Source of the DNA: an uncultured Chlorobiaceae bacterium
GTDB taxonomy: Bacteria; Bacteroidota; Chlorobiia; Chlorobiales; Chlorobiaceae
Direction of reading: 5' to 3'
Length of the DNA: 32,984 nucleotides
Assembly: GCA_903824045.1 (NCBI GenBank)
Contig: CAIJVD010000021.1
Span: forward strand, 1 to 32,984
This document shows, piece by piece, positions 6,984 to 32,984 of this stretch. A program made the position numbers and the translations under genes. Numbering within the stretch: position 1 is the first letter of the stretch; each line of letters starts with the position of its first letter. The notes beneath the pieces are model-generated. The model worked only from the letters and a program-made list of their open reading frames with translations, made no database searches and was not told the origin of the DNA.

Positions 6984-7529
6984 ATGGCTGCCGACAGTGT
7001 GAATCAATCACCGCTTCCGTTTTCCGCAAAGCTCTATACGGTGCTCGTGGGGGCCATCCTTATTCTGCTCTCCACTACCGTGCCCTACCTGACCTTGATC
7101 AATGTCTTCCTTTTTGCCGGCGTTTTCATCTCCGGCACCATCGCGCTCAACCACTCAATCCTGCGATTTCAGGTGCGTCTGGCATTCAATGAGGCATTCC
7201 TTCTGGGCTGCTTTGCCGGCCTTGTTGGTGGCGTGCTTTCAGAGGGTGTTGGTTATATTCTGATGGAGCTCTTCCACTACAGGCCGGGTTCGGAAAGCCT
7301 TTCGCTCGTTATCAGGTGGGCGCTCGATATGGCTCAGAACAGGCCCGAGCTGCATGAACAGGTAGAGACCCTTGTGGCAGCCCAGAAGATGGCGCTCGCC
7401 CCCCTCAACCTGAGCCTTGCTGATCTGTTTATGAATATGGTTTTTTCCGGCGCTTTTTATGCCCCGATAGCAGGCCTCGGCGGTTCATTCGCCGTGCTGC
7501 GGCTCAAGAGGAAGGCCGCCAGAGGCTGA
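6984..7529 (+). CDS. Hypothetical small integral membrane protein
   Basis: I do not recognise this 181-residue protein. It has hydrophobic stretches at about residues 16-35, 38-52, 68-90 and 143-170, suggesting four membrane helices. A more polar middle segment (about 95-130) lies between the third and fourth, and the C-terminus is basic (LRLKRKAARG). A good Shine-Dalgarno (GAGGAG) lies just before the ATG and just after the dapB stop, 6 bases away, so it belongs to the dapB transcript. Its last 26 bases overlap the 3' end of menE, which runs the other way. The layout resembles DUF4199-like membrane proteins of the Bacteroidota/Chlorobiota, but I cannot confirm that. Confidence 0.7.
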   Translation: MAADSVNQSPLPFSAKLYTVLVGAILILLSTTVPYLTLINVFLFAGVFISGTIALNHSILRFQVRLAFNEAFLLGCFAGLVGGVLSEGVGYILMELFHYRPGSESLSLVIRWALDMAQNRPELHEQVETLVAAQKMALAPLNLSLADLFMNMVFSGAFYAPIAGLGGSFAVLRLKRKAARG

Positions 7530-8937
7530 GGGCCTGCTTGCTATACCATGCCCGGTCTGTCTTCTGCGACCCCGGCAGCCGCACCCACTCGTTTACCCGC
7601 TCGTAGCGCACAGGAGTTTTAAGCGACCCGACCAGGGCGCGCATGGCCCCGTTGAGCGTCTCCTCATCACCCTCATGTTCCGGCGCGTGGATGAATGCCA
7701 GCGGCCGCAGTCCATACTCCGGATCGGGCACCGGAACGACAACCGCCTCGATAATGCCGCCGACGCTCATCAGTGCTTTTTCTATCTCTTCTGGATGGAT
7801 GTTCTCCCCGCCCGAGATGAACATATTGTCCTTCCTGCCGAGAATAGTCACCATTCCATCTTCGCTAACGAGGCCGATGTCGGAGGTGTGGAACCACCCC
7901 TCGCTGTCGGTCTGAGGCCTTGGTACACCATCCTGCAGGTATCCCTGAAAGAGGGTTTTTCCCCTGACGAGAAGCTCTCCGTCCTCCGCCGCCCTAACCT
8001 CCCGCCACGGCAGCACTGTTCCGCTTTCACTATCCTCGCCGCTTACCGGAGCGGCGGTGGTGGCGATCTGCGAGCTCATCTCGGTTGAGCCGTAGCTCAT
8101 GTAGAGCGGCAGATGGCGGCGCGCGGCCTCGTCGAGGATCGACTGCGGTGCCGCGCTTCCGCCGAGGAGGATCGCCTTGAGGGCACCGAGGGGTGCGGCG
8201 GTGCTGCTGTTGCCGAGCAGGCGGTAGAGCTGCGTTGGTACAAGGGAGAGGTGTGTAACCGGATAGTTGGAGAGCGACTCTTCAATGGTCGCACCGGGAG
8301 TCGGCACAGCCAGAGCGCCCCCCGAGACGAAGGCCCTGAAGAGGAGAGAGTAGCCGCCGATATGGTAGAGCGGCAGGGAGAGCAGCCAGCACTCACCGGG
8401 GCCAAACGCGATATTCTCGCTGGATCCCAGGGCGCTGTGCCAGTGATTGGCAAAGCTGTGAACGGCCGCTTTTGCTACGCCCGAGCTTGCCGAGGTGTGG
8501 ATGATGGTCACGGGGCGCTCCATTGCTTCCTGCGCTTCCGGGGCGATTGGCCTTTCGCCTGAAGAGTCCTTCATGAAGAGTGAAGAGATCGGCATCGTGT
8601 CTCTCTCGTCGAGCAGGGCTGGCAGCTTTCCGGCATGAAGCACAAGTGCGGGCTGGAGGCGCTCGATCATGCCCTCGAGCAGCGCTTCAGGCAGACGGTA
8701 GTTGAGCGGAGCGGCAACCAGCCCGGCTTTCAGCATGGCGAGCAGCACGAGCACCGCCTCAGGGGTGTTTGGCGAGAGCATTGCGACAATGTCACCGGAC
8801 TTTGTTCCTCTTTCAAGCAGCAGGGCGGCAATGCGCGCCGCTTCATCATCGCACGCTTCGAACGAGATCGTCCCCTCCGCTGTTCTCAGTGCCGGGGCTG
8901 CGGCAAAAAGCCGTGCGGCTCTCTCTACAAGGTCCAT
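7504..8937 (-). CDS. menE: o-Succinylbenzoate-CoA ligase
   Basis: MenE activates o-succinylbenzoate with ATP and CoA in menaquinone synthesis. The 477-residue protein is an ANL-superfamily adenylating enzyme. The phosphate-binding loop is a variant, TSASSGVAK (148-156). Other signatures are YGSTE (282-286), GWFHTSDIG (347-355), the hinge GRKDN (367-371) and ISGGENIHPEEIE. A C-terminal Lys459 in GSQKTDR sits where the adenylation lysine is expected. It is the last gene of the men operon and overlaps menC by 13 bases. Its tail overlaps the converging membrane-protein gene by 26 bases. Position within the operon makes MenE far more likely than another acyl-CoA ligase. Confidence 0.93.
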   Translation of the reverse strand: MDLVERAARLFAAAPALRTAEGTISFEACDDEAARIAALLLERGTKSGDIVAMLSPNTPEAVLVLLAMLKAGLVAAPLNYRLPEALLEGMIERLQPALVLHAGKLPALLDERDTMPISSLFMKDSSGERPIAPEAQEAMERPVTIIHTSASSGVAKAAVHSFANHWHSALGSSENIAFGPGECWLLSLPLYHIGGYSLLFRAFVSGGALAVPTPGATIEESLSNYPVTHLSLVPTQLYRLLGNSSTAAPLGALKAILLGGSAAPQSILDEAARRHLPLYMSYGSTEMSSQIATTAAPVSGEDSESGTVLPWREVRAAEDGELLVRGKTLFQGYLQDGVPRPQTDSEGWFHTSDIGLVSEDGMVTILGRKDNMFISGGENIHPEEIEKALMSVGGIIEAVVVPVPDPEYGLRPLAFIHAPEHEGDEETLNGAMRALVGSLKTPVRYERVNEWVRLPGSQKTDRAWYSKQALSLWRPSS

Positions 8938-9991
8938 CGTGATTCCTGCCTGATCATATGCCTGTTGACTGCCAGGCTTTTCCTGTAGAGCGCTTCAGTA
9001 TCGAGCCAGCCGTCATCGGTTCCAAAGGGGGTCTCAAGCAGGTCGTGCGTCAGGTAGCGGAAGGTGTCGAGCCCGCACGGCGCAGGAGCGGGGGAGGCCG
9101 CCGCTGCAAGCATGGCATAAAACCCGAGGCTGACGCCGCTTTCAAATGCCGAGCTGAATACCGACAGCAGGTTCTTCTCCCTGCCAAGAGCCGCAAAGCG
9201 CATTGCAGCATTAATTCCGCCAAGGCGGTTCGGCTTCAGGATAAGGGCGCGAAGTGAGTTTTCCGGAAGGGTGTCGAGCAGCTCCGGCTGCTGCCAGAGG
9301 GTTTCGTCGAGCGCAGAGAGGGAGCCCGTCCGGGAGTGGAACTCCCCGATAAGCCGAGGTTCCTGGAGGGGCTCTTCGATGTAGGCGACGCTCCCTTCAG
9401 GGATGGTGCGGGCAAAAGCAACTGCGTCGTCGAGCGAGAGCGACTGGTTCAAATCGAGCCGCAGTTCGATGCCGCCGCCGAAGGTGCGGTGAAGTTCTGT
9501 GATGGTTTCGGCACTTTCAGAGAGGGCAGCGGGAGTGACCTTCAGCTTGAAGGCGCGGTAGCCGGTGTTGAAGAGCTTTTGCGCTCTCGCTATGACTGCC
9601 TGGGTACCCCCGAAGAGCAGAGCATTGAGGGGAACCTCATTCGTTTCTGTGGAGAGGGGCGCAAACGGAGAGCATCCTCTCTCGGCAGCATCGAGATTGA
9701 TCATGGCCATCTCCACCCCTGTGCGGACCGAAGGGTAGAGCTTCAGGGGGAGCGTGCCGCTGCGGGTAAAATCGTGTTCCGAGAGGAGTGCAACAAGCTG
9801 CCCCTCGGCCGCTTCGAGCGTTTCCTTGTGCAGGCCGGGAAGCGGGGCAATTTCGCCAAAGCCAACAAGTGACTCGTCAGCACTTTTCAGGGCCAGAAGA
9901 GCTCCCTCCCTATGGAGGAGCCGGAGTCCCCTGACGGTAACCGGCTCGGTGAAAGGGATGGAGTATCGGTAGAGTGTGGCGTGAGAGGCTC

Positions 9992-9995
<4 letters not shown>
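8925..9995 (-). CDS. menC: o-Succinylbenzoate synthase
   Basis: MenC dehydrates SHCHC to o-succinylbenzoate. This 356-residue enolase-superfamily enzyme shows the expected active-site set. The KxK pair is Lys150/Lys152 (FKLKV), the metal ligands are Asp181 (LDLN), Glu207 or Glu208 (YIEEPL) and Asp230 (LDETL), and the second catalytic lysine is Lys254 (LKPNRLGG). It overlaps menB by 4 bases (ATGA) and menE by 13 bases, implying coupled translation. The residue pattern would also fit dipeptide epimerases, but the gene neighbours decide for MenC. Confidence 0.92.
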
Positions 9996-10813
<818 letters not shown>

Positions 10814-10818
10814 AGTCG

Positions 10819-11643
10819 TTATGGTTCTTGCTGTTTGAAAAAATGGTGCAAACGCTCCACGAAAAGCTCCCGTTCCTCAAGCTGCAAGGCATGGCCGCAG
10901 CGGGGAAGGATTTCGCAGTCGGAGCCAAGGCATAACTTAACCATTTGGCGTGCAATCTCAACGTACCGCTCGTCTTTTTCCCCTGCAAAAAAGCGTACCG
11001 GCAGAGGGTTTTCCTGCAGGGCATCCCACATCGACGGCTGGTTTCCGGTGCCGAGAAGCCGAAGTGCACGAGCAAGGTTTTGCGGGTCGTTGATTTTGCG
11101 CAGTCGCTCCACCGCTCTATATGCCGGGTGGTTTCGGAGCGTGGAGAAGAGCGTCTGGCTGTACCACGCTTCGATGAATCCGGTAAAGTTTCTTTCGATC
11201 TTGCGAGCGATGCCCTCGTCGCTCGCCCGCCGGGCGATGCGCTCCTCCTCCGTCCGGAGGCCGGGTGATGCCGAGATGATGGCCGCCTGTGAGAAAAGGT
11301 CGGGGTGGCGAAGCAGCAGAGCAAGAGCGATGCGCCCTCCCATCGAGTATCCGACCAGCCGGTATGGCCGGGATGGCCTCTGGCGAACAAGGCAGGCAAG
11401 AGCCTCAACCGTCCGGTCAAAATACCCTTCCATCAAAAAGTCCGGTGCGATGAACGAACCTCCATGCCCCGGCAGATCAACCATCACACAGCAATACCTT
11501 TCCTGAAGTTTCTGTGCGATCGGCAGCCAGTCACTTCCCGATCCCAGAAACCCGTGAAGGAAGATAATCTGAGGCTGCGATTCCGCCCCGAGGGTGGCGA
11601 AGTGCAGCGGGATATCCGGTGAAGGTGTTGCCATGAGAGCCAT
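10819..11643 (-). CDS. menH: SHCHC synthase, alpha/beta hydrolase MenH
   Basis: MenH eliminates pyruvate from SEPHCHC to give SHCHC. This 274-residue alpha/beta hydrolase has the LHGFLGS turn (29-35), the nucleophile elbow GYSMGGR with Ser100, an acid at Asp224 (GEKDERY) and His251 (CGHALQLEE), a complete triad. A start at 11634 (MATPSPD) is equally possible and would remove three residues. The gene sits between menD and menB, exactly where MenH is expected. The 103-base gap after menD is the largest in the operon and could hold an internal promoter, but no clear -35/-10 pair is visible. Confidence 0.9.
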
Positions 11644-11746
11644 GAATGGTTAGGGGGTGGCAGCCGCCAGGATGAAAGAGTGTCACTGTAATATATGAAG
11701 CTCGATCACGTGCAGAAAATAATCCGGTTTTTCAATTCGACCCCGT

Positions 11747-13471
11747 TCAGAGGGTTTTGAATTTTGCCTGGAGGGCGCGGTGGAGGTTGAGGTTCTCCGG
11801 GCGGGTCGTCTCGACTTCGATAACGACGCTTCGGCTGCTGGTGAGGGCTGCTTTGTAGGTGTCGGTGAACTCCCGGTTCGTTATTGGGTGGGCGTAGTCG
11901 AGCGCGAATGTTCTGGCGGCCAGTTCGATGCTGAAGTTCTGGGGGGTGGCAAAGCACTCGTCGAGCCGGTCGGTTACTTTCGCTACGGGGAGGAAGGAGA
12001 AGATGCCTCCGCCGTGGTTGTTCAGGACGATGACAATCAGGCGGTTCCATGCGTGGTTGAGCAGAGAGAGGGCGTTCAGGTCGTGCAGGAAGGAGATGTC
12101 GCCGATGAGCAGGGTTGTGGGTGCCTGAAGTCCGGCAGCGAAGCCGGCGGCGGTGGAGATGATGCCGTCGATGCCGCTTGCCCCGCGGTTCAGTGCGGTG
12201 CGGAGCGGTGTTTTCGTCACCGGTGCAGCGAACAGGTTCATGTTCCGGGCCGGCATGCTGTTCGAGACGAAGATGGCGTGATTGTCGCCCGTGAGGGTTG
12301 AGACGATGCGTGCGGCAGATACCTCATTGACCGCACCGTCAGGAGAGCAGGCTTCCGCCTCGATCGTCCTGGCGGCTTCAGAAAAGAGTCTGCTGCACTC
12401 GGTGCTTTGGCCGGGTTTGCGGCAGCCCTGGAGTGCTGCGGCAACCGATGCCGGCGAGGCTTCGACATTCAGGGTGACGTTGTGGTCCGGGCTGAAGCGT
12501 CCGGGGTGCTCTCTGACGACAGCGTAGTGAAGGGGCGGGTGTTTCCTGATGGTCAAGCCGGGCTGTTTGCCGATCAGGCCGCCGCCGAAATGGATGACGG
12601 CGTCCGGCTTGAACTGTTCGGTAAAGGGTTCGTTCAGGAAGGCGAGCTGCCATGGAAGGCAGTTTTTGGAGAGCCTGATGCCGGAGGTAAGGTCACAAAA
12701 CAGGGGGATCTCCAGCGATTCCGCAAGCTTTTCAACGGCTTCTGCATCGAGAGGGTTCTCCATGTATCCAGCGACAAGTAGCGGTTGCTCGGCATGAGCA
12801 AGAATCGCTCTGAGTGCATCGACTCCCTCCGGCGAGGGTTCCTGTCGGGGGATTTCGAAGCGGCACCATGGCTCGCTGGAGGCTCGCCACTCCGAAAGTG
12901 GCAGCGCCCAGGGATGGTCGGGGTCGGGCAATTCCGGTTCGAGGGGCTCGCGGAACGGAGCGTTGAGGTGTACCGGGCCGGCTGGTGAACGGAGGCTGCT
13001 TTTTACACTCTGGTCGACTGTCGAGAGCAGCGACTTGAGCGGCGTGTCGGTGCCGGGAGATGGCAATTCGAAGCTCCACCGGGTATAGTCGCCGAAGATG
13101 TTCTGCTGGCGTATAGTCTGGTTGGCGCCCGATTCAAGCAGCTCGAAGGGACGGTCGGCCGAGAGGATGATCATTGGCTGCTGGTCCATTGAGGCTTCAA
13201 CAACTGCCGGAAAATAGTTGGCCAGAGCGGTGCCCGAGGTGCAGATGAGCACGGCAGGCATGCCGGTTGCGCGTGCGTAGCCCAGGGCATAAAAGGCGGC
13301 GGAACGTTCGTCGGGGAACATCCTGAACCGGGCTCTGGGGTTGTTGGCTACAGCAAGGGTGAGCGGTGTGGAGCGCGAGCCGGGCGAGATGCAGAAGAGG
13401 TCGGCTCCCTGGCGGATCAGCTCTTCGACGATGATGCTGCTCCAGAGCGTGTTGATTTGCCGGGTGTTCAT
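11747..13471 (-). CDS. menD: SEPHCHC synthase (thiamine-diphosphate enzyme MenD)
   Basis: MenD joins 2-oxoglutarate-derived succinyl semialdehyde to isochorismate, the committed step of menaquinone synthesis. The 574-residue protein shows the N-terminal CISPGSRSTPLTLA signature, RQQNIFGDYTRWS, and a C-terminal thiamine-diphosphate motif GDISFLHDLNAL followed by NNHGGGIFSFLP. The start at 13471 (MNTRQINTLWS) is favoured because it overlaps the menF stop by 4 bases (ATGA) and fits the family N-terminus. The frame extends to 13528 but only as a shadow of menF. Length is typical (about 560-580). Confidence 0.95.
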   Translation of the reverse strand: MNTRQINTLWSSIIVEELIRQGADLFCISPGSRSTPLTLAVANNPRARFRMFPDERSAAFYALGYARATGMPAVLICTSGTALANYFPAVVEASMDQQPMIILSADRPFELLESGANQTIRQQNIFGDYTRWSFELPSPGTDTPLKSLLSTVDQSVKSSLRSPAGPVHLNAPFREPLEPELPDPDHPWALPLSEWRASSEPWCRFEIPRQEPSPEGVDALRAILAHAEQPLLVAGYMENPLDAEAVEKLAESLEIPLFCDLTSGIRLSKNCLPWQLAFLNEPFTEQFKPDAVIHFGGGLIGKQPGLTIRKHPPLHYAVVREHPGRFSPDHNVTLNVEASPASVAAALQGCRKPGQSTECSRLFSEAARTIEAEACSPDGAVNEVSAARIVSTLTGDNHAIFVSNSMPARNMNLFAAPVTKTPLRTALNRGASGIDGIISTAAGFAAGLQAPTTLLIGDISFLHDLNALSLLNHAWNRLIVIVLNNHGGGIFSFLPVAKVTDRLDECFATPQNFSIELAARTFALDYAHPITNREFTDTYKAALTSSRSVVIEVETTRPENLNLHRALQAKFKTL

Positions 13472-14886
13472 GCTTCCTGACGGGTTATGGCCAGAATATC
13501 CCCTATTTTCTGTTCGACCTCCTCCCATTCGGCATGGGGATCAGAGCCCTTGACAAGTCCTGCGCCTGAGTAGAGGGTGACAAACCGGTCTTTGACAAGC
13601 GCCGAGCGGATGGCGACACAGAATTCGGCGGCATCCCTGCTCATCCAGCCGACCGGGGCGGCATACCATCCGCGGTTGAATGGTTCGAGCTCCATGATGT
13701 TTCTCATCGCTTCCGCCTTGGGGACTCCGCCGACGGCAGGTGTGGGATGGAGGCGCTTGAGAATAGCGGTGTCGTTCCGGAATTCAGGCCTGAGGGTTGC
13801 GCTGCATCTGGTATAGAGATGGGCAAGACGGTTGAGCTGCAGAACGTGGAGCTCATTTTCCATATCGACCTCGCTACAGAGAGGGGAGAGTTCGCTGTGG
13901 ATCATCTCACTGACGAACTTGTGCTCCCTGATATCTTTTTCAGAGTTCAGCAGCAGATCAGAGGCATCCTGGTCGCTGCCGGTGATGCTCCTCTTCGAGA
14001 CCGTTCCGGCCAGGGCTTCTGTGAGAAGCCTGTCGCCGTTTCTGAGGTAGAGCCTTTCCGGGCTGAAGCTGAAAAAAGCATGATGTTCGGCCGGTTCAAA
14101 GTGAAACCGGTAAACTGCATTGTCGGGATAGGGGTAGCGGAGCTGAAAGAGCAGGGGCGAGAACTCGGAGCTGAATTCGAGAATGGTCTGGCGTGCAAGC
14201 GCGACCTTTTTCATGTCGCTCTCTTCGAATGACCGAAGCGCCTTCAGGCAGTTCTCCTTCCACGCGGGTTCATCGGGGTTGTAGGTGATGCCGAGCAGTT
14301 CCGGCAGCCTTGAGCCTGAAGAGTCGCCCCCAGTCGTAACCGTGTCGAGGATCGCGATGATCTGCTCTGTTTTGGCTTGGTGATCATCCCCGTTTTTCAG
14401 GAAGAGACGGCAGGAGAGGGAGAAGGTGTTATGCTCAAAAGCGAGTTCGACGAGCGGCAGAATAAAGGTAAACGATGAAAAACCTTTCCATGCAGGGTCA
14501 AGCTTCTCCTCGTTGTTGAAGCGGATCCCGCCGAAATAGCGGGCCATTGGCTCCTTTCCCTCAAACTGTCGCTGGAGCTCATCGAAACTGTTCTCGTTCT
14601 CTGACTCGTTCTCAGCGCTGATACTGTCGGCTATGCCGATACCGGCGACCGCAAAATTCCTTTCACGGTTCTGCCAGAAAATTTTTGGATATACCTGCTG
14701 CCGGGAGAGCCAAAGGGGGATGTCGGAGGGCTGGACAGGCTGGCGAAATGTTATGCGGCGGCTCAGGGAGTGGTCCAAACCATTTTCCTGATTGAAACGG
14801 GTTATGGACTCTCTAAGCGTTGCAACAGCCGATTTGAGGGACAGGGGTTCTTCGGATGGTGTAATGGTATGGTAAAACTCACTCAT
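13468..14886 (-). CDS. menF: Isochorismate synthase (menaquinone-specific)
   Basis: This enzyme converts chorismate to isochorismate, the first dedicated step toward menaquinone. The 472-residue protein has the chorismate-binding fold. Visible motifs are MKKVALAR (catalytic lysine region), LTEALAGT, HPTPAVGGVPK and the C-terminal SGAGLVKGSDPHAEWEEVEQKI segment. The N-terminal third is variable, as is usual in the family. It is the first gene of the six-gene men operon. A promoter is expected in the 118 bases between it and the TPR lipoprotein gene, but no convincing hexamers are visible. EntC/salicylate-type synthases share the fold; context favours MenF. Confidence 0.94.
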   Translation of the reverse strand: MSEFYHTITPSEEPLSLKSAVATLRESITRFNQENGLDHSLSRRITFRQPVQPSDIPLWLSRQQVYPKIFWQNRERNFAVAGIGIADSISAENESENENSFDELQRQFEGKEPMARYFGGIRFNNEEKLDPAWKGFSSFTFILPLVELAFEHNTFSLSCRLFLKNGDDHQAKTEQIIAILDTVTTGGDSSGSRLPELLGITYNPDEPAWKENCLKALRSFEESDMKKVALARQTILEFSSEFSPLLFQLRYPYPDNAVYRFHFEPAEHHAFFSFSPERLYLRNGDRLLTEALAGTVSKRSITGSDQDASDLLLNSEKDIREHKFVSEMIHSELSPLCSEVDMENELHVLQLNRLAHLYTRCSATLRPEFRNDTAILKRLHPTPAVGGVPKAEAMRNIMELEPFNRGWYAAPVGWMSRDAAEFCVAIRSALVKDRFVTLYSGAGLVKGSDPHAEWEEVEQKIGDILAITRQEA

Positions 14887-16779: not shown

Positions 16780-16854
16780 CGGAGTTGACGGGGCTCGAAC
16801 CCGCGACCTCCTGCGTGACAGGCAGGCGCTCTAACCAAACTGAGCTACAACTCC
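16780..16854 (-). tRNA. tRNA-Asp (anticodon GTC)
   Basis: The 75-base cloverleaf folds cleanly. The acceptor stem is GGAGTTG/CAACTCC, the D arm GCTC/GAGC, the anticodon arm CCTGC-CTGTCAC-GCAGG with GTC, and the T arm GCGGG-TTCGAGC-CCCGT. The discriminator is G, as required for aspartate. The 3' CCA is not encoded (CTCC follows), so it must be added by the CCA-adding enzyme. Confidence 0.95.
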
Positions 16855-23407: not shown

Positions 23408-24412
23408 ATGCCGCATCATGATCTGATAGACCAGCTCGCCCTGCAGCTGCATGTGGATGCGTCCGAGGCCGGACGCCTGCTCGGTGCGTTTTGCGGGGCG
23501 CTCTCGGCCGAACTGCTCGAAACGGGAAAGCTTTCCATCGGGGGGCTCGGGTCGTTCATTGTTGTTCATCGTCCGTCGGCAAGAAAAATTACCTCTTCGG
23601 GCGTTCTCCTTACCCCTCCATGCAACGCTCTTGTCCACGAGCGCAGGCTTTCCGGCAGGGACGATGCTGCGCGTCTGGCGGTTTCGAGGCTCTCCATGAG
23701 CACCCTGGAGGGGGCCCGCTTTGCCCGTGAGCTTTCGGCTCTTCTTGCCGATGGCGTCAAGAACAAACAGGAGATCCGGCTCAACGGCTTTGGCCGGTTT
23801 TCGCTTGAGGAGGGGATCTATCGATTCAGGCCTGAACACTCTCTCGAAGAGCTTCTGAACCGGGGGTATGGCGATCTCGGCGACCTCGTTGTCGGTTCGC
23901 CGGGAGCCGGTAGGGGTGTTATGGCGACCCGGATGGTTCGTTACGTCCTTCCGATCGCAGTGCTCGTGCTAATCGTTACGACGACAGCCTTTTATGGCCT
24001 TGGCGCCAGGAAGTGGCTGGATTTCCCCTCTTTTCAGCTATCGCGGTTTGTGCCGCACCCCGCTATGGCGCTTGACCACTCCCGTCCGGCCGGGGCCGCG
24101 ACGCTCGGGCGCGGCTCAGTTGCGGACTCGCTTCTGCTGGAGCACGGGGAGTACACCATTATCCTTGCAACCTTCCGCCAGAAGGCGACGGCAGAGCATG
24201 AGCTTATAGCGCTTCGCTCGGCGGGGATCGATTCCTATATATGGCCGGCATCGGTGGATGGAGTGAAATACTACAGGCTGATGACCGGCCGGTTTTCAAG
24301 CCGGACTGCCGCTTCAAATCGCCTGAAGGAGCTGCCTGCAAAGGCCTCCGGCGATGCCTATATTCAACATGTCATCAAAAGGGTTGTCCTTTATGGAGAA
24401 AAAGGGTTGTAG
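23408..24412 (+). CDS. Membrane protein with two HU-like domains and a SPOR domain
   Basis: The 334-residue protein has three parts. Residues about 1-80 and 96-150 each look like an HU/IHF-type DNA-binding fold of the kind seen in Bacteroidota/Chlorobiota HU-CCDC81 proteins; the signatures are LSIGGLGSF (42-50) and IRLNGFGRF (123-131). Residues about 178-199 form one membrane helix (LPIAVLVLIVTTTAFYG). Residues about 246-312 form a SPOR domain (YTIILATFRQKATAEHEL ... YYRLMTGRFSSRTAA), which in studied proteins binds glycan strands stripped of stem peptides at division sites. The layout implies a cytoplasmic DNA-binding-like N-terminus and a periplasmic C-terminus. The ATG at 23408 is preferred over GTG at 23345. 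The gene overlaps bchY by 20 bases. Confidence 0.8.
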   Translation: MPHHDLIDQLALQLHVDASEAGRLLGAFCGALSAELLETGKLSIGGLGSFIVVHRPSARKITSSGVLLTPPCNALVHERRLSGRDDAARLAVSRLSMSTLEGARFARELSALLADGVKNKQEIRLNGFGRFSLEEGIYRFRPEHSLEELLNRGYGDLGDLVVGSPGAGRGVMATRMVRYVLPIAVLVLIVTTTAFYGLGARKWLDFPSFQLSRFVPHPAMALDHSRPAGAATLGRGSVADSLLLEHGEYTIILATFRQKATAEHELIALRSAGIDSYIWPASVDGVKYYRLMTGRFSSRTAASNRLKELPAKASGDAYIQHVIKRVVLYGEKGL

Positions 24413-25634
24413 CACGTTGCATCCCCAGTCGATGTGCCCGGCTTTCGGCGGGCTGCGGGTGTTGACAAGAATCGATGGGGTACAGGTCTGCCTGGCGGCC
24501 GATCAGGGATGCCTCTACGGCCTGACGTTTGTGTCGCATTTCTATGCCGCGCGCAAGTCGATCATTTCGCCTGAACTCATGAATGTGCAGATTTCAGGCG
24601 GGAGCATGATCGACGATATTCGCCGAACGATCGACGAGATTGCCCTCGATCCGTCAGTACGCTTTATTCCGGTTGTCAGCACCTGTGTAGCCGAAACTGC
24701 GGGGATTGCCGAGGAGCTGCTGCCCCGAAGGGCGGGCAATGCAGAGGTGCTTCTGGTCCGCCTGCCGGCCTTTCAGATCCGGACGCATCCAGAGGCTAAG
24801 GATGTCGCCGTGGCAACAATGCTGAAGCGTTTCGGTGCATTTGAGAGCGATAAAAAGCCTAAATCGCTGGTGATTCTCGGAGAGATCTTTCCGGTTGACG
24901 CCATGAGCATCGGTGCCGTACTCCAGAAGATAGGGGTCGAATCGGTGATTGCGCTTCCGGGCACAGCTCTCGAAGACTATATCGAATCGGGTAGGGCCTC
25001 TGCCTGTGCAGTGCTTCATCCCTTTTATGAACGGACGGCGTCGCTCTTTGAGGAGAATCGGGTGAAGATCGTCAAGGGGAACCCTATCGGCGCAAACGGC
25101 ACAGGGCAGTGGATACGCCGTGTCGGAGAGGCGCTCGATCTCGATATGGAGGTTGTTGCGGCGGTTGCCGATGAGGAGGCAGCCAAAGCGAGGGAGGTGC
25201 TTGCACGATTCAGCGGCATTAAGGGCAAAGTGATCGTTGCGGGCTATGAGGGCAACGAACTGCCGGTTGTGCGCCTTCTGCTGGAGGCAGGTCTTGAGGT
25301 GCCTTACGCTTCGACCTCTATCGCCCGAATGGCGCTGGGGGAGGAGGACCACAGGGTGCTCTCGATGCTTGGCACGGAAATCCGCTACCGGAAATATCTT
25401 GAGGAGGACATGCAGGCGGTGATTGAGTATGAGCCCGACCTGGTGATCGGCACCACCTCGCTCGACAGTTTTGCCAAGGAGCGGGGGATTCCTGCGATCT
25501 ACTACACGAACAACATCTCGGCACGCCCGCTCTTCTTTGCCGCCGGTGCAGCCACGGTGCTCGGCATGATCAGCGGATTGCTTGCGAGGAAATCGGTGTT
25601 CCAGGAGATGAAGGAGTATTTCGGCGGGGTATAA
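24393..25634 (+). CDS. bchY: Chlorophyllide a reductase subunit Y
   Basis: BchY and BchZ form the nitrogenase-like catalytic component of chlorophyllide a reductase. BchX feeds it electrons to reduce ring B in bacteriochlorophyll a synthesis. The 413-residue protein carries PQSMCPAFGGLRV (11-23) and GCLYGLTFVSHFYAARKS (39-56), clear BchY signatures. Cys15, Cys40 and Cys98 have the spacing of the three cluster-ligating cysteines known from the related BchN. I infer that they bind the [4Fe-4S] cluster with BchZ. The start at 24393 (MEKKGCSTLH) lies inside the preceding HU-SPOR gene; starts at 24369 or 24354 are possible. bchX and bchZ are not in the window. A terminator follows. Confidence 0.93.
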   Translation: MEKKGCSTLHPQSMCPAFGGLRVLTRIDGVQVCLAADQGCLYGLTFVSHFYAARKSIISPELMNVQISGGSMIDDIRRTIDEIALDPSVRFIPVVSTCVAETAGIAEELLPRRAGNAEVLLVRLPAFQIRTHPEAKDVAVATMLKRFGAFESDKKPKSLVILGEIFPVDAMSIGAVLQKIGVESVIALPGTALEDYIESGRASACAVLHPFYERTASLFEENRVKIVKGNPIGANGTGQWIRRVGEALDLDMEVVAAVADEEAAKAREVLARFSGIKGKVIVAGYEGNELPVVRLLLEAGLEVPYASTSIARMALGEEDHRVLSMLGTEIRYRKYLEEDMQAVIEYEPDLVIGTTSLDSFAKERGIPAIYYTNNISARPLFFAAGAATVLGMISGLLARKSVFQEMKEYFGGV

Positions 25635-29773: not shown

Positions 29774-31165
29774 ATGAATTGCCCACAGAAGATGCTTATT
29801 ACCCTCAACCCGGCAACAGAGGCTCCGATAGCCGAATATAACACCATGAACTCCCCTCAGATCCAGGAGGCGATCACCTTGGCAGAGCGCGACTGCCGTG
29901 CATGGAGATCGATCTCTTTTCCGGATCGGGCGCTTTTGATGAGGCGGCTCGGATCGCTGCTTCGCCAGGAGCGGGATACGCATGCCGCCTTGATCAGCCT
30001 CGAAATGGGCAAGCCCTTCGGGCAGGCTCAGGCGGAAGTGGAGAAGTCGGCATGGGTTTGCGACTATTACGCGGAACATGCCGCATCGTTCCTGACGCCC
30101 GAAGAGAGTGATATTGACGGCGCCAGGGGGGTTGTGAGCTTCGAGCCACTCGGCCTTGTGCTTGGCATCATGCCCTGGAATTTCCCCTTCTGGCAGGTTT
30201 TCAGGCTTGCAGCACCGGCGCTCATGGCCGGAAACGGCGTTCTGCTCAAGCATGCGCCCAACGTGACGGGCTCGGCCATTGCCATAGAGAAGCTTTTCAG
30301 GGATGCAGGTTTTCCTGAGCATCTCTACAAGGCAGTGCATATCGCCCTTGAGGATACGGACCGCCTGACAGGAGAGATTATAGAACATCCGGCGGTAAAG
30401 GGGGTTTCGCTCACAGGAAGCACGGCTGCCGGTCGGGCAGTTGCATCGCGGGCGGGCAAGGCACTGAAAAGGAGCGTGCTCGAGCTTGGAGGCAGCGATC
30501 CCTATATCGTGCTTGACGATGCCGATATTGAGCAAGCCGTCACGCTCTGCAGCGCAGCGCGTCTTCTTAACAGCGGTCAGAGCTGCATCTCTGCCAAACG
30601 ATTTATCGTTCACTCCGGCATTATCGGGCAGTTTGAGTCACTGCTTCTTCGGCGCATGCGCTCTGCCGTTATGGGTGACCCTTTCGATCCAGCAGTAGAG
30701 ATAGGCCCCCTTGCTCGCAATGACCTTCGCCTCCAGCTTCATGACCAGGTAGTGCGCAGCATCTCACAGGGGGCTCGGCTGCTCTGTGGCGGGAGCATTC
30801 CTGAAGGCAAGGGGTTCTTTTATCCGCCAACGCTGCTCGGGGGAGTGCGGCGCGGGATGGCGGCATACAGCGAGGAGACCTTCGGGCCGGTAGCGACACT
30901 GATTGAGGCCAAGGATGATGAAGATGCAATCGCTATTGCCAACGATACCCCGTACGGCCTCGGCTCTGCGGTCTTTTCAGCCGATATTGCCAGGGCACTC
31001 GCTGTTGCGGGCCAGATTGAAGCAGGGAACTGTTTTATCAACAGCATAGTGAAGTCCGACCCCAGGATGCCTTTCGGTGGCGTCAAGGAGTCTGGATATG
31101 GTCGCGAACTCTCCAGCTACGGACTTCGTGAGTTCGTCAACGTTAAAAGCCTCTATATTGCCTGA
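29774..31165 (+). CDS. NAD(P)-dependent aldehyde dehydrogenase, succinate-semialdehyde type (Sad/YneI-like)
   Basis: The 463-residue protein is a complete aldehyde dehydrogenase. It has MPWNFPFWQ (Asn136), LLKHAPN with cofactor-binding Lys159, the general-base motif LELGGSDPYIV (Glu237) and the nucleophile NSGQSCISAKR (Cys271). EETFGPVA and the PFGGVKESGYGREL tail follow. The length and the SDPYIVLDDADIE stretch are closest to the YneI/Sad group that oxidises succinate semialdehyde. In a green sulfur bacterium this could bridge 2-oxoglutarate-derived semialdehyde to succinate, but that is inference. A start at 29792 is possible. It is convergent with the first HTH gene, 20 bases away. Confidence 0.88.
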   Translation: MNCPQKMLITLNPATEAPIAEYNTMNSPQIQEAITLAERDCRAWRSISFPDRALLMRRLGSLLRQERDTHAALISLEMGKPFGQAQAEVEKSAWVCDYYAEHAASFLTPEESDIDGARGVVSFEPLGLVLGIMPWNFPFWQVFRLAAPALMAGNGVLLKHAPNVTGSAIAIEKLFRDAGFPEHLYKAVHIALEDTDRLTGEIIEHPAVKGVSLTGSTAAGRAVASRAGKALKRSVLELGGSDPYIVLDDADIEQAVTLCSAARLLNSGQSCISAKRFIVHSGIIGQFESLLLRRMRSAVMGDPFDPAVEIGPLARNDLRLQLHDQVVRSISQGARLLCGGSIPEGKGFFYPPTLLGGVRRGMAAYSEETFGPVATLIEAKDDEDAIAIANDTPYGLGSAVFSADIARALAVAGQIEAGNCFINSIVKSDPRMPFGGVKESGYGRELSSYGLREFVNVKSLYIA

Positions 31166-31185: not shown

Positions 31186-31689
31186 TCAGAGGAGGATAGC
31201 GAGTTCCGAGAGGTAGGTCTTGATCGACTGGTGTTTTTCAAGACCGAGCTTCTTGTGTATCCTGTAACGAATGCTCTCCATTCCTCTTGTCGATATGCCG
31301 ACAGAACGGGCGATCTCCTTGGTGTCGTAGTTCAGTTTGACAAGCAGGCTGATTCTCAGCTCCCGCTGGTTGAGGTTGGGATGCTTTTTCTGAAGCTTTG
31401 AGAGGAATGTCGAGTCCGATTCGGTAAGCTCTATGTTCAGCCGTTTTTCGATGGTTTCGGTTTCAATCAAGCTCAGGCATGAATCAGTCATGCTTCTCTT
31501 GACGGTGGTATCGATTTCAAGGGCATATATCTGGTCGAGAAGATTTCTCAGGGCATTTGTTTTTTCGGCGATCGCCGTGGAGACCCTTGTCAGTTCCATG
31601 TCCTGTGAAGCTATGCGGGTCCTCAGTGCGGCGATCTCTTTTTCAAAATCAACCGCGGCCTTTTTAGTCTGTTCGGCTTGTGCGTTCAT
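31186..31689 (-). CDS. Coiled-coil/LuxR-like HTH regulator, copy 1
   Basis: The 167-residue protein has a heptad-rich N-terminal half (about 12-60) likely to form a coiled coil. It ends in a LuxR/GerE-like helix-turn-helix (LNQRELRISLLVKLNYDTKEIARSVGIS... region, about residues 108-160). No receiver, sensor or membrane segment is visible, so a ligand or partner may come through the coiled coil. The start MNAQAEQ at 31689 is chosen because the paralogue shares this ATG context. The longer reading (31701) would begin at an ATG that is out of frame in the paralogue. About 153 of 167 residues match copy 2. The function is unknown; a transcription regulator is inferred. Confidence 0.8.
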   Translation of the reverse strand: MNAQAEQTKKAAVDFEKEIAALRTRIASQDMELTRVSTAIAEKTNALRNLLDQIYALEIDTTVKRSMTDSCLSLIETETIEKRLNIELTESDSTFLSKLQKKHPNLNQRELRISLLVKLNYDTKEIARSVGISTRGMESIRYRIHKKLGLEKHQSIKTYLSELAILL

Positions 31690-31826
31690 TTTTGTGATCA
31701 TCGGGTTTGTTCAGTTATCGAACTCATTTATTTGTGTGTGCATCCGCTCTCTTGTTAATCGATCTTCCAGCGTACGGATTGCTTGCACTATTAACGGTTA
31801 CTAAAATCGACATCGTGTTACTGCGT

Positions 31827-31991
31827 CTACGTCGGGAAATGACGTAATTTAAAGTGTAATATGTCTTTTTTTTGCAGGAAAACCAATTCAAGGGGAGCTT
31901 CCGTGAGGAAATATAACTCTTTTCTGGGCTTGAATACGCTGAAACGGTAATCTTTCCTGACGTTATTTTTTAACTCATCCCGTTCTCCCAT
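31827..31991 (-). CDS. Candidate 54-residue protein
   Basis: A complete small reading frame runs from ATG at 31991 to TAG at 31827. A plausible Shine-Dalgarno (AGGAG) lies 9 bases before the start. The product begins MGERDELKNNVRKDYRFSVF and is rich in Lys, Arg, Phe and Leu, with no cysteine or membrane helix. It lies about 140 bases upstream of HTH copy 1 on the same strand, so the two could be co-transcribed. I recognise no family. Part of the corresponding sequence next to copy 2 (32821-32843) aligns with its 3' end but reads differently, so it is degraded there. It could be a chance frame. Confidence 0.35.
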   Translation of the reverse strand: MGERDELKNNVRKDYRFSVFKPRKELYFLTEAPLELVFLQKKDILHFKLRHFPT

Positions 31992-32095
31992 CGCAGCTAT
32001 CTCCTGTGCTGATTTTCAGCCGCCAGCTCCCGCCTTCCCTGAAAAAAGCAAAGGCCCACCTTTTATAGGCAGTCCTTATGAGTCGTTGTTGCTCC

Positions 32096-32143
32096 ATCAG
32101 GGAGGGCCCATCGTGCTAAACGAAGGTCGAGGCTCTCCCTGAT
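32096..32143. other. Perfect 9-bp inverted repeat downstream of HTH copy 2
   Basis: ATCAGGGAG (32096-32104) and CTCCCTGAT (32135-32143) are exact reverse complements around a 30-base spacer. They start 13 bases after the copy 2 stop in the direction of its transcription. There is no T-run directly beyond, so it is not a standard terminator. It may be an operator, an RNA 3' stem or a relic of the duplication. Confidence 0.4.
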
Positions 32144-32155
32144 AGTACAGTGTGT

Positions 32156-32659
32156 TCAGAACATGATCGATAACTCGGAGAGGTAGGTCTTGATCGACTG
32201 GTGTTTTCCAAGACCGAGCTTTTTGTGCATCCTGTAGCGGATACTTTCCATACCTCTTGTCGATATGCCGAGAGAGCGGGCGATCTCCCGGGTGTCGTAG
32301 TTCAGTTTGACAAGCAGGCTGATTCTCAACTCGCGCTGGTTGAGGTTCGGGTGCTTTTTCTGAAGCTTCGAGAGGAATGTCGAGTCCGATTCGGTGAGCT
32401 CTATGTTCAGCCGTTTTTCAATGGTTTCGGTTTCGATCAGGCTCAGGCATGAATCAGTCATGCTTCTCTTGATGGTTGTGTCGATTTCAAGAGCATATAT
32501 CTGGTCGAGAAGATTTCTCAGGGCATTTGTTTTTTCGGCGATCGCCGTGGAGACCCTTGTCAGTTCCATGTCCTGTGAAGCTATGCGGGTCCTCAGGGCG
32601 GCGATCTCTTTTTCAAAATCGACCGCGGACGTTGCTCTCTGTTCGGATAGTGCGTTCAT
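32156..32659 (-). CDS. Coiled-coil/LuxR-like HTH regulator, copy 2
   Basis: This 167-residue paralogue of the gene at 31186-31689 has the same layout: coiled coil first, LuxR/GerE-like HTH last. The two proteins differ at about 14 positions. Six lie in residues 4-11, one near residue 63 and the rest in the HTH and C-terminus (for example Glu to Gly in GLxKH and LL to MF at the end). The start MNALSEQ is at 32659; the frame extends to 32806 but that part is leader sequence. Just upstream, ATGATCATACAATGA forms a four-codon frame whose stop overlaps the start ATG. Beyond its leader the duplication is cut off by the IS element. Confidence 0.8.
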   Translation of the reverse strand: MNALSEQRATSAVDFEKEIAALRTRIASQDMELTRVSTAIAEKTNALRNLLDQIYALEIDTTIKRSMTDSCLSLIETETIEKRLNIELTESDSTFLSKLQKKHPNLNQRELRISLLVKLNYDTREIARSLGISTRGMESIRYRMHKKLGLGKHQSIKTYLSELSIMF

Positions 32660-32847
32660 TGTATGATCATCCGGTTTAATCGTCTGTAAAAGCCGTTTAT
32701 TTGTGTGTGCTCTTTTATTGCGAACGTCCTCAGGTTTAAGGGCGTCATCAACAGCCTGAAGCCGGGAATGGAAACTCTCTTGTCGAGCAGTTTCCCGAGG
32801 CGGCAATCAATGCCTGGGCTGACGTGATATCGGGTGTAGTATGCTTA

Positions 32848-32870
32848 GAGCTTATTCGTAAATAAATTGA
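32848..32870 (+). mobile_element. Probable left end of an IS element
   Basis: GAGCTTATTCGTAAATAAAT begins at 32848, about 80 bases before the transposase ATG. AT-rich ends containing GCTTATTCG are common termini in IS5-like elements. The similarity of the upstream duplication stops here, which also suggests a junction. The right end and any target duplication lie outside the window. Confidence 0.4.
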
Positions 32871-32928
32871 TCGATACTGGGAAAAACGTTATCTTTCTTC
32901 CAAAGGCAAATCATTATTATGGGAGAAG

Positions 32929-32984
32929 ATGATGGCGAAAACAAAGTCATGGGAAGTATCTGATTCGTTTTGGGGAAAAGTAGA
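32929..32984 (+). CDS. IS5-family-like transposase, 5' fragment
   Basis: The first 18 codons of a gene run off the right edge. The reading MMAKTKSWEVSDSFWGKV resembles the N-terminus of IS5-family transposases, which typically start with a short basic stretch then a YEVSDELWxxVEPLLP-like helix. A ribosome-binding site GGGAGAAG lies just upstream. Only about 18 residues are visible, so the family call is tentative. Confidence 0.55.
   Translation, partial: MMAKTKSWEVSDSFWGKV

Follow-up and report, generated by a model that had tools for sequence, protein, structure and literature searches.

The window, the whole stretch of 32,984 nucleotides that was analysed, is the entire contig C21 of a draft genome (2.09 Mb, 37 contigs) from an uncultured Chlorobiaceae bacterium, a placement with which the nearest relatives agree. 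Close to its right-hand end it encodes two closely similar proteins on the reverse strand, each composed of a coiled-coil and a GerE-like helix-turn-helix (HTH). The features of this region are as follows:

29774..31165, forward strand: aldehyde dehydrogenase (ALDH) gene, a conserved convergent neighbour used as synteny marker
31186..31689, reverse strand: copy 1, stand-alone coiled-coil/GerE-like HTH protein, 167 amino acids from the ATG at 31689, convergent with the ALDH gene
31249..31290, reverse strand: putative recognition helix of copy 1 (residues 134-147), in which only residue 144 differs from copy 2
31523..31626, reverse strand: 104-nt run in the coil region of copy 1, identical to copy 2
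31690..31752, reverse strand: copy-1 leader, an apparent relic of long-form coding DNA directly upstream of the internal methionine
32156..32659, reverse strand: copy 2, tandem duplicate of copy 1, 167 amino acids, 153/167 identical, sister in trees
32493..32596, reverse strand: 104-nt run in the coil region of copy 2, identical to copy 1
32660..32710, reverse strand: copy-2 leader, about 73% identical to that of copy 1, with a shared 15-mer at 32696-32710
32847..32984, no strand assigned: left end of a repeated element, within which the contig breaks

The first-pass annotation of this DNA described two 167-residue proteins of about 92% identity, 970 bases apart, with 104 identical bases in the coil and with differences clustered in the first eleven residues and the C-terminal part, and this description proved accurate. 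The proteins share 153 of 167 residues (91.6%), the DNA is 89% identical over 561 nt (an alignment that takes in about 50 nt of leader), the spacing is 970 nt and the longest stretch free of differences measures exactly 104 nt. Six of the 14 amino-acid differences fall in residues 4-11, one at residue 63 and seven in residues 124-167. Neither copy contains a frameshift or stop, a possibility that the annotation had raised against its own reading. The mechanically delimited open reading frames are longer, at 171 amino acids from the ATG at 31701 for copy 1 and up to 216 from the TTG at 32806 for copy 2. Directly downstream of copy 2 there is an inverted repeat (32096-32143; 13-nt arms, 92% complementary, 22 nt between them), beside which no T run was seen. 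Rfam models gave no match at the tandem-pair locus, and only a tRNA at 16780-16854 elsewhere in the window. The window also encodes the chlorophyllide a reductase subunit Y, BchY (24354-25631), upstream of recG and rsgA, and a cluster of menaquinone genes (7507-14886) comprising menE, menD and isochorismate synthase.

The repeated element begins 188 bp upstream of copy 2, and stretches of 137-141 nt that are 100% identical to it are found at the ends of contigs C4 and C1 and at the start of C17. The start of an open reading frame within 32847-32984 resembles an IS5-type transposase, to which we presume it belongs. When the body of the element was sought with two transposase families nothing was found in this genome, and the same families matched in 5 and 9 of 14 control genomes. 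It is possible that a neighbour of copy 2 is missing because of the contig break, although the genome is rated 99.96% complete.

Homologs of copy 1 are widespread, with at least one match in all 25 genomes of the same genus that were searched (its own included) and in 34 of 41 genomes overall. They occur in two lengths, a short form of about 167 amino acids and a long form of about 408 with an extra N-terminal region; our 111-row set contains 65 long and 45 short sequences and one assigned to neither. Many genomes have genes for both forms, which are often neighbours, and in relatives the member nearest to the same ALDH-rsgA-recG genes may be long (e.g. L033, L034, L035, L036, L046 and L057) or short (L048, L049, L050, L052 and L095). 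The genome under study encodes a third member, L003, also short and 49% identical; it is adjoined by a 432-residue open reading frame (L003 2054-3352), presumably an archaeal-type S-adenosylmethionine synthetase judging by its resemblance. Neighbouring pairs of short members are also present in relatives (G020:C2:67788-68901 and G011:C4:10036-11743). In another genome the STAS-domain region of a long member lies in two pieces with an internal TGA (G001:C8:59011-59735), possibly a decaying long gene.

Structure prediction for the long form L033 (48-row alignment, mean pLDDT 86.7) gave an alpha/beta domain, a helix spanning residues 200-297 and an HTH. Residues 22-153 of the model superpose on SpoIIAA (1tid_D; Z 11.3, rmsd 2.5, 112 aligned, VIA) and match other STAS domains too, and residues 342-406 superpose on the HTH of DosR (Z 9.3, rmsd 1.9, 64 aligned) and on LiaR (Z 8.8). 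Foldseek E-values for the long model are weak (best 4.5e-3), none of six long forms matched a Pfam model of the STAS family at E<=1, and the best Pfam hit to the N-terminal domain of L033 had an E-value of 0.15, which is not a good match. When a counterpart of the conserved phosphorylatable serine of STAS proteins was looked for, no serine was seen among the (nearly) invariant columns of 31 long-form N-terminal regions, the residue correspondence being tentative. The long form is predicted to consist of a SpoIIAA/STAS-like domain, a long helix and a LuxR/NarL-type HTH. This predicted fold is shared with SpoIIAA/RsbV-type STAS proteins by the long relatives only, which differ from these proteins in escaping the Pfam STAS model and in having the domain fused to a DNA-binding domain; no Pfam model used here picks up the fusion of a STAS-like domain to the coil-HTH module. 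Elsewhere in the order and phylum, other families have a related output module (25-39% identity; L028-L032) fused to TPR (four of the five proteins) or to a Y_Y_Y/propeller region (the fifth), whereas the module in the window is free and that of its relatives is joined to the STAS-like domain. Our literature searches listed no publication on this coil-HTH/STAS-like family, and the passages considered in PMC9239204 deal with unrelated matter.

The short-form model consists of two helices plus the HTH. It matches the C-terminal domains of VraR, NarL and DosR with a Foldseek probability of 1.00 but E-values of 0.05-0.2; neither the short nor the long model has a Foldseek match at E<=0.001, and sequence searches for solved relatives returned nothing convincing. 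The two copies score 19.5 and 19.7 bits against GerE (PF00196), below the Pfam cut-off of 23.5, and the short relative L089 scores 24.6. In contrast to the LuxR/NarL-type (GerE, PF00196) regulators DosR, LiaR, VraR and NarL, with which their C-terminal part is predicted to share the HTH fold, the window proteins have no detected receiver or autoinducer domain and remain under this cut-off; a REC domain was not matched at E<=1 in either copy or in six long forms, nor was a TPR domain in the window proteins. Helix 134-147 is taken to be the recognition helix because of where it sits in the HTH, in line with what is generally known of LuxR-type domains. Its only difference is at residue 144, isoleucine in copy 1 and methionine in copy 2, the latter being also the residue in 22 of 26 relatives, and the suggestion of altered DNA recognition made in the first-pass annotation is therefore not borne out. 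Because the recognition helix is nearly unchanged, both proteins would be expected to bind the same sites, and coil-mediated dimers, homo- and heterodimers alike, should form. These are most likely two sensor-less regulators acting on the same sites.

What the first-pass annotation overlooked is that the free-standing proteins resemble a shortened form of a larger, sensor-fused regulator found commonly within the genus. The short start maps inside the long helix, at a position where 27 of the 65 long genes have ATG and most of the others a codon for leucine. Positions -63 to +29 of copy 1 align with -62 to +29 of L033 at 73% identity (E 3e-12), with 30 nt of the alignment coding in both, and the copy-1 leader has a relic score of 18, compared with a maximum of 13 among 798 control contexts. 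The signal is weaker for copy 2 (score 11 against a control maximum of 7; p 0.013 in a separate test), the leader of which has no blastn match to long genes. Across the family, 30 of 45 short genes match long-form coding DNA around the start, including up to 30 nt of coding sequence, and 28 of the 43 short genes submitted to the relic-score test, which left out L068 and L003, scored above all 798 controls. The other 15 did not, among them all six of clade E and all three of clade F; some control contexts probably overlap the scored stretch, to judge from clade B, for which the control maxima are nearly as high. Upstream of L003 there is a weak long-form relic (best tblastn E 1e-4), and its leader match lies at a different place from that of other short genes. 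The leader relic suggests that the direction was from long to short, the short form being a truncated long form that would have lost its sensor part. A long-gene remnant directly upstream of copy 2 was also sought, but the end of the window gave no convincing match to long N-terminal regions. The shared leader 15-mer was considered as a genome-wide operator and rejected, as it occurs only at these two sites in the genome (allowing at most one mismatch) and is absent from other short leaders; it is better explained as having been carried along in the duplication than as the binding site of a regulon.

Trees of the C-terminal region were built from 111 rows, excluding matches that span fewer than 120 residues, identical sequences and L028-L032, and from 105 rows, after six long-branch rows (L003 among them) had been dropped following a warning from the larger tree. 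The short label requires six changes on the 111-row tree and four on the 105-row tree, and starred branches force at least two. Holding all 44 short rows together gives a best tree 28.9 log units worse (p-AU 0.055), so that several origins of the short form are favoured and a single origin is not rejected.

Copies 1 and 2 are sisters in both trees (support 100/94 with 111 rows and 100/98 with 105 rows), and the pair arose by a lineage-specific tandem duplication in which the gene was copied together with about 50 bp of leader. The earlier description of a recent tandem duplication of a stand-alone coiled-coil/HTH gene stands in this respect, although "recent" is to be read only in a relative sense, given a dS of 0.28 between the copies. 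With dN at 0.047, omega is 0.17, and both copies are retained under purifying selection. When counted by segment, the changes are uneven and synonymous ones are sparse in the coil: dS is 0.10 in codons 13-58, and the successive segments 3' of these have 0.29, 0.44 and 0.59. Synonymously differing codons number 3 per 33 sites in codons 13-58 and 21 per 74 beyond (Fisher p 0.043, for segment borders picked after the alignment had been inspected), and the mean position of synonymous differences is shifted 3' (P 0.008). Evenly spread divergence, which had been named as an outcome that would tell against the first reading, does not describe the pair, as a run of 104 nt has a probability of 0.0006 if 44 differences are evenly placed over 501 nt, and of 0.029 for synonymous sites only. 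Constraint on the DNA itself was ruled out as the cause of the identical stretch, since synonymous change between species is normal in this part of the gene: in comparisons of the window with 48 relatives that are at least 79% identical, the synonymous difference averages 0.72 in the coil segment, as against 0.65-0.83 in those that follow. As the coil DNA is not specially constrained, partial gene conversion, already offered in the first-pass annotation, is the natural reading of the identical stretch; it is likely, with moderate support.

Taken together, these observations lead us to regard as probable that the pair represents a truncated one-component regulator that was duplicated in tandem, partly converted in its coil and kept in both copies as unmodulated regulators. 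A one-component regulator would have come first, built from a SpoIIAA/STAS-like domain for sensing or interaction, a long helix for dimerisation and an HTH of the LuxR/NarL type. Some ancestor of the present gene would have lost the sensor part, with translation starting from a methionine inside the long helix and the former coding DNA left as leader. In the lineage of the window the short gene and about 50 bp of leader were then duplicated, after which the coil segment was most likely homogenised by partial gene conversion, while drift would have affected residues 1-11 and the 3' end. Both proteins would dimerise via the coil, bind the same sites and act without STAS input, with extra dosage or separate expression contributed by the second copy.

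It has also to be considered whether the short form, having coil and sites in common with the sensor-fused long form, acts as its competitor or negative partner, as the frequent co-occurrence of short and long genes, often side by side, and the high similarity of their coils and HTHs might indicate. We consider this unlikely, because a search with a STAS-domain alignment, which found the domain in 22 of the 25 same-genus genomes, found none in the window's genome, G012 or G020, and short proteins thus persist where no long partner is detected. A neutral duplication on its way to loss, with no distinct role for the second copy, would fit the repeated element close upstream of copy 2 and the seemingly decaying long member noted above, but an omega of 0.17 and two frames still intact at a dS of 0.28 make it quite improbable. 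The view taken in the first-pass annotation, that divergence has turned the copies into a heterodimer pair differing in DNA or partner recognition, with the coil kept for pairing, draws on the concentration of differences at the ends and on the 7.5 non-synonymous against 0.5 synonymous changes in codons 1-12. This we hold to be the least probable of the three, since the recognition helix differs at one residue, at which copy 2 carries the common one, and the N-terminal signal is confined to 12 codons; because that end is variable among short relatives, relaxed constraint is sufficient to account for it.

The tandem pair by itself is an ordinary duplication, and it is the origin by sensor truncation that is worth following. 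A broader proposition, which we put forward tentatively and as somewhat short of an even chance, is that, in green sulfur bacteria, a STAS-coil-HTH family has lost its sensor again and again at one and the same internal methionine, whereby sensor-coding DNA would become leader and free DNA-binding proteins would be born; in some lineages, that of the window included, this would have gone on until the last sensor-fused form had disappeared. The family would then show, with good sampling within one genus, how a regulator that depends on a signal may turn into one that is signal-free, its former coding sequence still being legible in the leader.
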